From an uncultured Fidelibacterota bacterium (lineage in GTDB: Bacteria > Fidelibacterota > Marinisomatia > Marinisomatales > UBA1611): 36,426 nucleotides of DNA. This document shows positions 25,106 through 36,426 of this stretch, piece after piece. The translations under genes and the position numbers were made by a program. The notes beneath the pieces are model-generated. The model worked only from the letters and a program-made list of their open reading frames with translations. It had not been told where the DNA came from and searched no databases. Numbering within the stretch: position 1 is the stretch's first letter; each line of letters starts with the position of its first letter. Location: the NCBI GenBank assembly GCA_902602795.1, contig CACKSF010000010.1:1-36426 (forward strand). The letters are read 5' to 3'.

Positions 25106-25161
25106 TTCAACTTTTTTCCTTAGTAATACATCTATATTCTCTAAACAGAATTTACTTTTAC

Positions 25162-25656
25162 TTATTGATCCTTCTCAGTTAAAGAGTGAATTAATTTTAC
25201 CACGCTTAAACCTTCTATAACATTACCAAATGCGGTAAAACTCTGGTCATAAGTATTCCTTCTTCTTCATAATTCAGCTCAATTTGATCATTAATGCAAA
25301 TAAAAACATCTGAGCTTACAATTACTGGATCGATTCTTTCCATGGAAAGAATACCATTCATATATTTTATTGCTGTAGCATTAGTTGTTTTATTTAAGGC
25401 GGGTGGAAGTTTCAGAGGTGTCTCTCAAAACCAAAGTCACCTTGAAATACTTCTATTTCAATTCTGCTTATGGATTGATTAGACATTGTAACAGTTCTAA
25501 AAAAATGAAAATCTTTATGGCCATATTCATTTATATGCCTTTAGGAATTATTGCAAGCTGTAGGGACCTCTTTTACAAATAATTTACATAGATACTTCCA
25601 TAAACAGCGTGTATCTCAATAATTGTATCTTTTTCAGTGATGTAAGACAAATCAAT
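25162..25656 (-). pseudogene. Decayed cyclophilin-type peptidyl-prolyl cis-trans isomerase
   Basis: Minus-strand fragments in shifting frames: 'ITEKDTIIEIHAVYGSIYV', 'KEVPTACNNS*RHINEYGHKDFHFFRTV', 'EVFQGDFGFER', 'NGILSMERIDPVIVSSDVFICINDQIELNYEEEG', 'YDQSFTAFGNVIEGLSVVKLIHSLTEKDQ*'. Order and motifs match cyclophilins (FHRVI, QGGDF, G-LSMAR-DP-SS-FFIC, FTAFG-VIEG-DVV). Confidence 0.82.
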
Positions 25657-25771
25657 TAGTTTATTTTATTAAATAGATAAAAATTTAATTATAATTAAAC
25701 ATAAAATATCTCCAACTAAAATATCAAATTTGTAATTAAAATTAAATAACTAAATCAAATTAAAATTTAAC

Positions 25772-26719
25772 ATGATAACAATTATGGAAATTCAAAAAGC
25801 ACATGAAAGAATAATACCTTTCATTCACCGCACCCCAATTTTCACTAATAAGAGTTTAAATCAAGAAAGTGGTGCTGATTTGTATTTTAAATGTGAAAAT
25901 TTTCAAAAAGCAGGATCTTTTAAAATTCGGGGAGCAACAAATGCAGTTATGTTGCTAAGTGATGATGAACTTTGCAGAGGAGTAGTGACAGCATCCTCAG
26001 GTAATCATGGAGCAGCTTTAGCTATGGCTGTTACATCTAGAAGTGGAAGTGTTCAAGTTGTGATGCCGATAAATACGCCACAAATTAAAGTAGAAAATGT
26101 AATTCGAAATGGTGGTGAAATTATTTGGTGTGATCCTAATATAAAATCTAGAGAAAAAGTTTTAAAAAAAATAATAGATAAAACAGGATCGATTTTAATT
26201 CATCCTTACAATGATAGAAATATTATTGTTGGACAGGGTACTGCAGCAAAAGAATTTGTTGAAGATGTTCCTAATCTTGATATAATTGTTTCTCCTGTTA
26301 GCGGGGGAGGTTTATTAAGCGGAACACTTATATATTCCAAAGAAATAAATTCAAAAGTCTTTGTATATGGCGCTGAGCCAGAAGAAGCTAATGATGCTTT
26401 TAGATCCTTAAAGCATGGGTCCATTCAATTAAATAAAACTACAGACACTATTTGCGATGGTTTAAGAGCACAATTAGGTGATCTAAATTTTTCTATTATC
26501 AAGGAAAAGGTAGACGAAATTATTACAGTTTCAGAAAAGGAAATAATTAATGCTATGCGAATGGTTTGGGAGAGAATGAAAATTATTGTCGAGCCTTCTT
26601 GCGCAATTACTCTAGGGGCAATACTTAAAAGAAAAGATGAAATAAAGGGAAAAAAAATAGGTCTTATCTTGTCAGGAGGGAATGTTGATTTAAGTCGATT
26701 ACCTTGGAGAGAAAGTTAA
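25772..26719 (+). CDS. Threonine dehydratase / serine racemase-like PLP-dependent enzyme (fold type II)
   Basis: CENFQKAGSFKIRGATNAV (PLP lysine), ASSGNHGAALA, SPVSGGGLLSG; short, no ACT domain. Confidence 0.88.
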   Translation: MITIMEIQKAHERIIPFIHRTPIFTNKSLNQESGADLYFKCENFQKAGSFKIRGATNAVMLLSDDELCRGVVTASSGNHGAALAMAVTSRSGSVQVVMPINTPQIKVENVIRNGGEIIWCDPNIKSREKVLKKIIDKTGSILIHPYNDRNIIVGQGTAAKEFVEDVPNLDIIVSPVSGGGLLSGTLIYSKEINSKVFVYGAEPEEANDAFRSLKHGSIQLNKTTDTICDGLRAQLGDLNFSIIKEKVDEIITVSEKEIINAMRMVWERMKIIVEPSCAITLGAILKRKDEIKGKKIGLILSGGNVDLSRLPWRES

Positions 26720-33629: not shown

Positions 33630-34187
33630 ATGATAGATGAAATTTTAAGTGATATAAAAAATCGAATGCAACAAGCAATTTTGCATACGCAAACTGAGTT
33701 AAATAAGGTGAGAACCGGCAGAGCAAATCCTGAGATGTTTAATTCCTTATTAGTAGATTATTACGGTATGCCTACTCCTATCAATCAAGTGTCTACTATA
33801 TCTGTTCCTGAGCCAAGATTAATCACATTAACACCTTATGAAAAGCCTCTGCTTCCATTAATTGAAAAATCTATTATGGATGCAAATATGGGATTCACTC
33901 CAGGGAATAATGGTAACTCTGTTTTGGTTCCAGTGCCACCTTTAAGTGAAGAGCGAAGAGTAGAATTAAATAAATTTGTACATAAATTAGTTGAGGATGG
34001 TAGAATAGCAATAAGAAACGTAAGGCGGGATGGAATTCAGAATCTTCAGAACTTTGAAAAGGACGGTCATGTTTCAGAGGACGTTATTAAGGATAATGAA
34101 CTTGAAGTTCAAAAAATCACGGACAATATGATCAAAAATTTAAATGAACTACAAGAAGAAAAGGAAAAAGAAATTTTAGAAGTATAA
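33630..34187 (+). CDS. frr: Ribosome recycling factor
   Basis: ELNKVRTGRANPEMFNSLLVDYYGMPTPINQVSTISVPEPRLITLTPYEK; SEERRVELNKFVHKLVEDGRIAIRNVRRD. Confidence 0.96.
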   Translation: MIDEILSDIKNRMQQAILHTQTELNKVRTGRANPEMFNSLLVDYYGMPTPINQVSTISVPEPRLITLTPYEKPLLPLIEKSIMDANMGFTPGNNGNSVLVPVPPLSEERRVELNKFVHKLVEDGRIAIRNVRRDGIQNLQNFEKDGHVSEDVIKDNELEVQKITDNMIKNLNELQEEKEKEILEV

Positions 34188-34212: not shown

Positions 34213-34353
34213 TTAATCACATTTAGACCAACCACATTCTCTGCAAGTTAAACAACCACCTTCATTAAAAACACTATGGCTATGACATTCACTACAAATC
34301 ATACCTTTAGGTGTATTTTCTTGGGCTAAAGTTATTCTAGGTGAATCGAAGTT
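34213..34353 (-). other. Out-of-frame (-1) continuation of nrdJ encoding its C-terminal Cys-rich redox tail
   Basis: After T12 on + (A12 on -, 34352-34363), the -1 frame reads NFDSPRITLAQENTPKGMICSECHSHSVFNEGGCLTCRECGWSKCD*, ending at 34213. CxxC...CxxCxxCxxxxC resembles class II RNR C-termini. Confidence 0.85.
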
Positions 34354-36426
34354 TTTTTTTTTTCTTCCTTTCCACTGTCGTATTCACTTCTCTCCAACAA
34401 ATAATCATCTAGTGCTTTACCGATTGCATCAGGGGTTGATAATATAAGTCTACCATCTTCCCATGTAGGATTGGGTCCGGATATTCCTTTAAGCTGCCTT
34501 ACAATAGCCTTCGGATCAAGTCCAGAACGCAATGATAAAGAGATTAATCGGCTAATAGCTTCGGATTGTGCCGCTGCATTTCCACCAGCCTTACCTATAG
34601 TAGTGAATACTTCGCAAAGACCATTTTCATCTTCATTAATAGTAATATATAATGTTCCTTCCCCTGTTCGAATTCTTCTAGTTACACCTTTTGTTTGAGT
34701 TGGTCTTGAACGAGGAGTCTTGTCTGTAGCTTTTTCTGGAGCTTTGGAATTTTCTTCTAATTTTTTTGTTTCCGAATCATCTTCATTTGTTATTAAAATT
34801 CCCTCTCGACTACCTTCTCGATACACAGTTATACCCTTCAAGCCTGCTTTATAGGCTGTCATGTAAATATCTGCAATAGTATCTACGGTGATTTCATTTG
34901 CCAGATTTACTGTTGAGGAGATAGAGGAATCAATGTATTTTTGTATTGAACCTTGCATTTTAACACGAAAATATGGATCAATATTATGGGCAGTTACTAC
35001 ATGATCTGGTAGATTTTCATCTGTTCCGTATAGTTTTTTAATAACAGGATGATACACTGTGTATTCCTTAAAGGTTTTTCCGTATCCAGTATTTTCTTTT
35101 ACCCTTCTTTTGTAAGATGTTGCAAAAATGGGTTCAACTCCAGATGTTACTCGAGCTACGATTGCACCACTACCAGTCGGGGCAACTGTAGTTAATGTGC
35201 TATTCCTAATGCCGTGTTTTTTAACTTTATTTTGAATTGTTTTGGGTAGATTTTTAACGAATTTACTTTTAGAATACCCAGACCAATCAAAATTAGGGAA
35301 AGCACCTTTTTCTGAGGCCAATTCGATACTAGTTTCATAGGAAGTGTCTCTAAAAATCTGCATTATCTGTTCGATTGTCTGCAATGCATCTTCACTATCA
35401 TACTGTATACCCATTTTCACTAACATATCTCCTAGTCCTAAGATTCCTAATCCGACCCTCCTATCATTTGTGGCATTTTTCTTTTGATCTTCCAATGCAT
35501 GACGATCCAAGTTATAGTCGACCACATTGTCTAGGAAACGAGTCCCCGTAGCCACGGTTGATTTGAATTCTTCAATCATAAAATTTCCATTATCATCTAC
35601 AAATCTTTCAAGGTTAACAGCGCCGAGATTACAGCAACCCCCATCTGGGAGTGGTTGCTCTGCACAAGGATTAGTAGAGACTAGAGGTGAGCAATACTCA
35701 GCATTATGATAGTCTTTCATAGTATCCCAAAATAATAGACCAGGTTCGGCACTTGAGTGTGCATGGGAAATGATTTGATTCCACAAATCTTGGGCTTTAA
35801 CTGTTTTGTATACAACACCTTCATATTTTAAATCAAAATTTTCATTTTTTTCTACTGCCTCCATGAAGTCATGAGTAAGTAGTACGGATATATTTGAGTA
35901 TTTGACCATGTCAACATCACCCGTTTTAATACTTATAAATTTTTCAATGTCTGGATGATCTATCCTTAGAGTTTGCATATTAGCGCCTCTGCGACCGTGC
36001 TGTGCTATTGTATTTGTATTCTCACTAAATAAGTTCATAAAACCTGTTGGACCACAGGATTCTCCTCCTGTTCCATTTATTGCTTTTCCTGACGGGCGCA
36101 AGACAGATAGATCATGACCGCAACCTCCACCATACTTGTAAGTTAGAGCTTCATTTATAATAGTTTCATATATAGATTTTATAGAGTCGTTACGTACAGC
36201 AACCACATAGCAATTATTTAAGGTTGTTGTTATATCTTCCCTCCCGGCGCCATGCATAATTCTCCCACCAGGAACAAAACGAAAATCTTCAAGTATGGAA
36301 AGGAATTCTTTTTCCATTTTCTGTCGTAGGGATTTTGTTTTTTCTACTGATGCTAGCGCTTTGGCTTGGCGTTCCCACATTTGATGTGGATGCTCTTCCC
36401 AGGGGGCTAAATATTTTTGTTTTAGT
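34332..36426 (-). CDS. nrdJ: Class II (adenosylcobalamin-dependent) ribonucleoside-diphosphate reductase, 0-frame ORF, 5' truncated by window edge
   Basis: GGRIMHGAGRE, NCYVVAVRNDSI, CGHDLSVLRPSG, NPCAEQPLPDGGCCNLGAVNLE, GLKGITVYREGSREG. Frame stays open upstream of the track start (KYLAPWEEHPHQMWERQAKALASVE), so the gene continues beyond 36426. 0-frame ends ...KEEKKKTSIHLE* just after an A12 run. Confidence 0.93.
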   Translation of the reverse strand, partial: LKQKYLAPWEEHPHQMWERQAKALASVEKTKSLRQKMEKEFLSILEDFRFVPGGRIMHGAGREDITTTLNNCYVVAVRNDSIKSIYETIINEALTYKYGGGCGHDLSVLRPSGKAINGTGGESCGPTGFMNLFSENTNTIAQHGRRGANMQTLRIDHPDIEKFISIKTGDVDMVKYSNISVLLTHDFMEAVEKNENFDLKYEGVVYKTVKAQDLWNQIISHAHSSAEPGLLFWDTMKDYHNAEYCSPLVSTNPCAEQPLPDGGCCNLGAVNLERFVDDNGNFMIEEFKSTVATGTRFLDNVVDYNLDRHALEDQKKNATNDRRVGLGILGLGDMLVKMGIQYDSEDALQTIEQIMQIFRDTSYETSIELASEKGAFPNFDWSGYSKSKFVKNLPKTIQNKVKKHGIRNSTLTTVAPTGSGAIVARVTSGVEPIFATSYKRRVKENTGYGKTFKEYTVYHPVIKKLYGTDENLPDHVVTAHNIDPYFRVKMQGSIQKYIDSSISSTVNLANEITVDTIADIYMTAYKAGLKGITVYREGSREGILITNEDDSETKKLEENSKAPEKATDKTPRSRPTQTKGVTRRIRTGEGTLYITINEDENGLCEVFTTIGKAGGNAAAQSEAISRLISLSLRSGLDPKAIVRQLKGISGPNPTWEDGRLILSTPDAIGKALDDYLLERSEYDSGKEEKKKTSIHLE

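Follow-up and report, generated by a model that had tools for sequence, protein, structure and literature searches.

The gene for a class II (B12-dependent) ribonucleotide reductase (RNR), nrdJ, is interrupted in the window (the whole stretch of DNA analysed, 36,426 nucleotides) by a frame break at a run of 12 adenosines (A12), and the redox tail of the enzyme is encoded in the -1 frame. Judged from sequence comparison, the break is in all likelihood private to this genome and not programmed, lying at a mutable A-run in a class II RNR gene that is ordinary in other respects. Its cause would be either a length error in the consensus or assembly or a recent, real slippage mutation, and these two are about equally likely. 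Programmed use of the break is very unlikely.

The features of the locus are collected in Table 1. The 5' end of nrdJ is missing, as the gene is cut at the contig edge (36425). The 0-frame closes with ...SGKEEKKKTSIHLE at a TAA codon (34332-34334) found six codons past the run. The -1 frame reads ...KKKNFDSPRITLAQENTPKGMICSECHSHSVFNEGGCLTCRECGWSKCD up to its own stop, and the tail within it, ...NFDSPRITLAQENTPKGMICSECHSHSVFNEGGCLTCRECGWSKCD, is open as far as the TAA at 34213-34215.

Table 1. Features of the nrdJ locus, in window coordinates.
Feature	Position	Strand	Basis
nrdJ for class II (B12-dependent) ribonucleotide reductase; the 0-frame carries the catalytic barrel and the TSCPD domain	34332..36425	-	Pfam/NCBIfam matches
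A12 homopolymer, site of the frame break	34352..34363	-	sequence and alignment to the sister G001
Purine-rich GGAAAGGAAG, Glu/Lys codons of the linker, SD-like by chance	34364..34373	-	not conserved in relatives
nrdJ -1 frame, encoding the linker and redox tail of the C-terminus, TAA 34213-34215	34213..34359	-	NF006417 match
Six-cysteine zinc-ribbon/redox segment MICSECHSHSVFNEGGCLTCRECGWSKCD	34216..34302	-	cysteine pattern common to nearly all relatives
Presumed frr, convergent neighbour	33630..34187	+	25 bp between frr end and tail stop codon

In Pfam, the 0-frame matches PF02867 (E 5e-113) and the TSCPD domain PF12637 (E 2.4e-20). It also matches TIGR02504 above the model cut-off (E 6.1e-164), carrying the class II signature. 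The body of this frame covers positions 35-715 of NF006417 (E 1.6e-186), and the -1 frame tail covers positions 724-758 of the 759 in the same model (NF006417/PRK08665; E 3.7e-6). Since body and tail match successive parts of one model, the two frames belong to one gene. This confirms that the nrdJ frame is broken at A12 with the redox tail in the -1 frame, as a preliminary description of the DNA had proposed; the stop that separates the tail from the catalytic frame is found in this assembly only. It is the homology of both frames, rather than the occurrence of an A-run, that chance would not be expected to produce; nine-A runs, with 10 matches in the window against 13 expected, show no excess there.

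Several other points of the preliminary description were borne out, and its interpretation is partly supported. The tail is intact and free of stops, and it ends 25 bp from the convergent ORF, which we take, from its sequence and established knowledge, to be frr. The A12 is indeed the longest coding homopolymer in both the window and the genome; one A13 lies elsewhere (contig C50), with no ORF across it. The eight tail cysteines that had been claimed were, however, counted as six, in the pattern CxxC ... CxxCxxCxxxxC. In Pfam, and in PDB by a structure search with the tail alone, only weak zinc-ribbon (RPB12-like) matches were obtained.

The tail itself is ordinary in this phylum, Candidatus Neomarinimicrobiota (Marinimicrobia, SAR406), to which the nrdJ relatives belong, and nearly all of them carry the same six-cysteine pattern. 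A similar arrangement is known from the class II RNR of S. nassauensis, in which six C-terminal cysteines (CxxC ... CxxCxxC and a final cysteine) bind zinc and supply the active site with electrons (Loderer et al. 2017, PMC5704485). The S. nassauensis enzyme differs in its C-x5-C end, which is C-x4-C here, and its tail is not out of frame as in this assembly. The first cysteine pair takes two forms among close species, either CxxC (MICTECHNHSV) or widely spaced (CNEGVGHMEC), as seen at family loci L002, L006, L010, and L015. The window has the CxxC form and the nearest sister the wide one, a distribution that suggests repeated switching or local recombination. A few Neomarinimicrobiota NrdJ tails (L052 and L070) have five cysteines only, as one member of the first pair is missing.

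The tail was found in frame in all 27 family genomes in which the gene reaches its 3' end and in all 77 readable GTDB loci, the two sets overlapping in species. The latter were 70 loci parsed by script and 7 by inspection, among 80; of the remaining three, two are cut off at contig ends and one had another ORF picked by the script. The nearest sister (G001/MED648), whose NrdJ has 94% amino acid identity, reads GGAAG-A10-C, in frame, at the identical position where the window reads GGAAG-A12-C. The two-base difference appears as an alignment gap at 34352. The sister's run of 10 is an in-frame length, and a run of 12 is not. A strain-level search of viral contigs for the locus gave no match. The linker that joins the TSCPD domain to the redox tail is Lys/Glu-rich and variable in sequence and length, so that A-runs appear there repeatedly and whole-codon length changes are tolerated. 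Runs of 9 or more (9-11) occur in the linkers of a minority of relatives and are always in frame. With all readable relatives in frame, the break probably arose as a slip private to this DNA or its assembly and not as a programmed switch.

A rival reading is that programmed frameshifting or transcriptional slippage is selected here for two NrdJ isoforms. The A12 does contain overlapping slippery A_AAA_AAA heptamers, the purine-rich, SD-like stretch does lie upstream, and the tail is intact. Both motifs, however, are merely Glu and Lys codons (GAG/GAA/AAA) of the variable linker, and conservation of the slip site and of the purine stretch was looked for in the linkers of relatives and not found. 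In the -1 ribosomal frameshifting of dnaX, an A-rich slip site is combined with a purine-rich stretch upstream and a stimulatory structure. The nrdJ run shares the first two of these features but not the third, as the RNA downstream of A12 folds no better than shuffled sequences (z = +0.77) and its folding is not conserved in relatives. The alignment with sister genomes by which the preliminary description had proposed to judge its reading went against a programmed event, with the frame break conserved in no readable relative. An intact tail would also fit a recoding event maintained in this one species (one genome), which counts against a private, non-programmed break; even so, programmed production of two isoforms is highly improbable.

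A phase-variable switch of nrdJ, also raised at the outset, is extremely unlikely. A long A-run is mutable and the linkers of some relatives have runs of 9-11, but the run is not conserved and is absent in most relatives. Moreover, the product is an intracellular enzyme and the sole RNR found, and P. aeruginosa, with its naturally split NrdJ, needs the redox subunit NrdJb in vivo (PMC4520616).

The sequence of the tail argues against its loss. Differences between the tail and that of L032 (TMED6) number 4, 3, and 21 at codon positions 1, 2, and 3, respectively (7 of 28 at positions 1 and 2), and all six cysteines are kept. These counts were used instead of ratios since pairwise dS was saturated or undefined for several pairs. 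The pattern led to the rejection of tail decay; having accrued on both lineages, it shows that any lesion is recent or without effect, rather than continued selection after it. A picture of what real decay looks like in this lineage, in contrast to the nrdJ tail, is provided by a cyclophilin/PPIase-like gene (family assigned by eye) at 25135-25773 on the minus strand of the window. It has three single-base deletions and several stops, and is intact in the sister (L144:3557-4210, 217 aa). The remnant has about 56-66% amino acid identity to the sister gene, against close to 90% for the neighbouring genes. Gene loss does occur in the lineage, as this remnant shows, but a true loss of the nrdJ tail, with the gene an incipient pseudogene, is exceedingly improbable when the tail is fully intact with six of six cysteines and belongs to the sole RNR found.

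In the window's genome and in its two congeners, no RNR large subunit besides NrdJ was found. The genus, in which the window's genome is 59% complete and the sisters are 86-88% complete, yielded neither a further PF02867 protein nor NrdD. A second RNR that would make the tail dispensable was rejected, as these more complete sisters have only NrdJ in the PF02867/NrdD search. From this, and from the need for NrdJb in P. aeruginosa, one would expect great harm from a truly tailless NrdJ. An intact tail and no other RNR found make it most likely that the cell still produces full-length NrdJ.

The tail might instead be made as a separate small protein that acts in trans, like Pseudomonas NrdJb. A split class II RNR does exist, and as in NrdJa/NrdJb the redox tail lies in a reading frame separate from the catalytic part (PMC4520616); an ATG (34300-34302) stands just before the first cysteine. 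NrdJb, however, has 229 residues and its own gene, unlike the frame of about 48 residues here, which has no credible start. The product from the ATG would have only about 29 residues, behind a poorly spaced SD, and the cysteine-rich domain of S. nassauensis failed to reconstitute activity when made separately (PMC5704485). The likelihood of such a gene split is close to negligible.

The background of frameshifts was examined in about 0.8 Mb of the 1.38 Mb of the window's genome (G000; 81 contigs, GC 32% in the part sampled) and about 0.98 Mb of the sister. Across the window's genome, 36 A/T runs of 10 or more were found: 22 within a spanning ORF, 13 in intergenic regions or at gene ends, and one that looks broken, namely nrdJ. 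The 22 other coding runs are 10-11 long and all in frame, which indicates a low error rate at slightly shorter runs. Sister proteins were aligned to the sampled sequence with a filter that overlooks genes of strong divergence, for example the PPIase remnant; this gave 245 orthologous ORFs, in which three frameshift junctions were apparent. By their coordinates, one was judged to be a break of the sister, one to precede the true start, and the third to be nrdJ. The reverse comparison gave about three junctions in the sister, so that a few breaks per 250 genes is the background of such drafts. Two long genes of the sister (L194 near 14395 and L193 near 8780) show apparent frameshifts with no homopolymer at the junction. 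Widespread homopolymer errors in the window's genome were rejected, given that 22 long coding runs are in frame and that just one of the 245 ORFs compared is clearly broken.

These data bear on the first of the two causes proposed above for a private, non-programmed break. The run length may be purely an error of sequencing, amplification, or assembly, or a consensus over strains of differing run length, the real gene being in frame. The draft state and low completeness of the genome, the rank of A12 as its longest coding run, and the status of nrdJ as the sole RNR found all favour this, whereas the intact frames of all 22 other long runs speak against it and, with homopolymer errors not rampant, against the preferred reading in this form. 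The chance of a length error was judged to be a little below even.

Long A-runs are rarer in genes than codon usage would predict. Expected counts were obtained by redrawing synonymous codons from the genome's own usage, following the logic of Baranov et al. (PMC1088944). In the sampled 0.8 Mb, A-runs in genes up to A8 are at or above expectation (248 seen, 197 expected), A9 is slightly below (55 seen, 67 expected), and from A10 upward the runs are depleted, with 12 seen against about 45 expected. Similarly, the in-gene share of A/T runs falls from 0.85 at length 8 to 0.61 at length 10. The depletion is consistent with runs of 10 or more being costly in this genome, by slippage or mutation. 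For a SAR406 genome, this sharp drop, absent up to A8, points to a length of about 10 from which selection acts against runs that slip or are unstable.

The second cause of a private, non-programmed break is a real A12 that is tolerated. In this case the addition of one A by RNA polymerase stutter (13 A's) would restore the nrdJ frame, and stutter together with some ribosome sliding would yield both tailless and full-length chains, and among these the tailed subunits may re-reduce tailless partners. The closest precedent is tssM1 of Citrobacter rodentium, in which added A's at an A11 before a premature stop give about 20% full-length TssM1 (PMC4256274). As in tssM1, the A-run in nrdJ is soon followed by a premature stop, an essential C-terminal domain is encoded out of frame, and one additional A in the transcript would restore the frame; unlike tssM1, for which mass spectrometry and functional tests demonstrated slippage, nrdJ is known from the sequence of one genome, with a sister that has an in-frame A10. 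Single-base insertions dominate slippage at A/T runs, with an exponential rise with length, and no other slippage insertion is as common in E. coli and Buchnera (PMC5574713). Furthermore, ribosomes slide on consecutive AAA codons (PMC4363877), and electrons can be transferred across subunits in class II RNR (PMC5704485). Genes that are disrupted at 9 or more A's in one species but form a single ORF in others were listed as probably expressed by slippage and not as pseudogenes (Baranov et al. 2005, PMC1088944). The nrdJ gene resembles these in being broken at an A-run in one species and a single ORF elsewhere, although it comes from a draft genome with a possible consensus error. As at transcriptional slippage sites, an A/T run of about 9 or more stands at the junction and the other frame encodes the missing domain. 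The depletion of coding A10 and longer runs is consistent with costly slippage or instability but could also reflect mutational instability, and a majority of chains without the tail would be a cost for an essential enzyme. A real, tolerated A12 is given somewhat less than an even chance. If it is real, slippage very probably supplies the full-length enzyme; we infer both this rescue and the cause of the length change.

A further proposal is that A12 is fixed in this SAR406 species and that slippage keeps tailless and tailed NrdJ at a stable ratio, which would be tolerated or exploited as one tail re-reduces neighbouring subunits of the oligomer. We know of no RNR in which the stoichiometry of the redox tail is set by transcriptional slippage, and this proposal is very doubtful.

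A-runs of this kind are known to be corrected in part by RNA polymerase slippage. Should the A12 of nrdJ be an error, it would call for caution on long A-runs in AT-rich draft genomes. Should it be real, an essential gene would rely on polymerase stutter in a free-living organism. Such reliance is known chiefly in endosymbionts and for a small number of secretion genes, and the case would serve as a warning against calling such genes pseudogenes.
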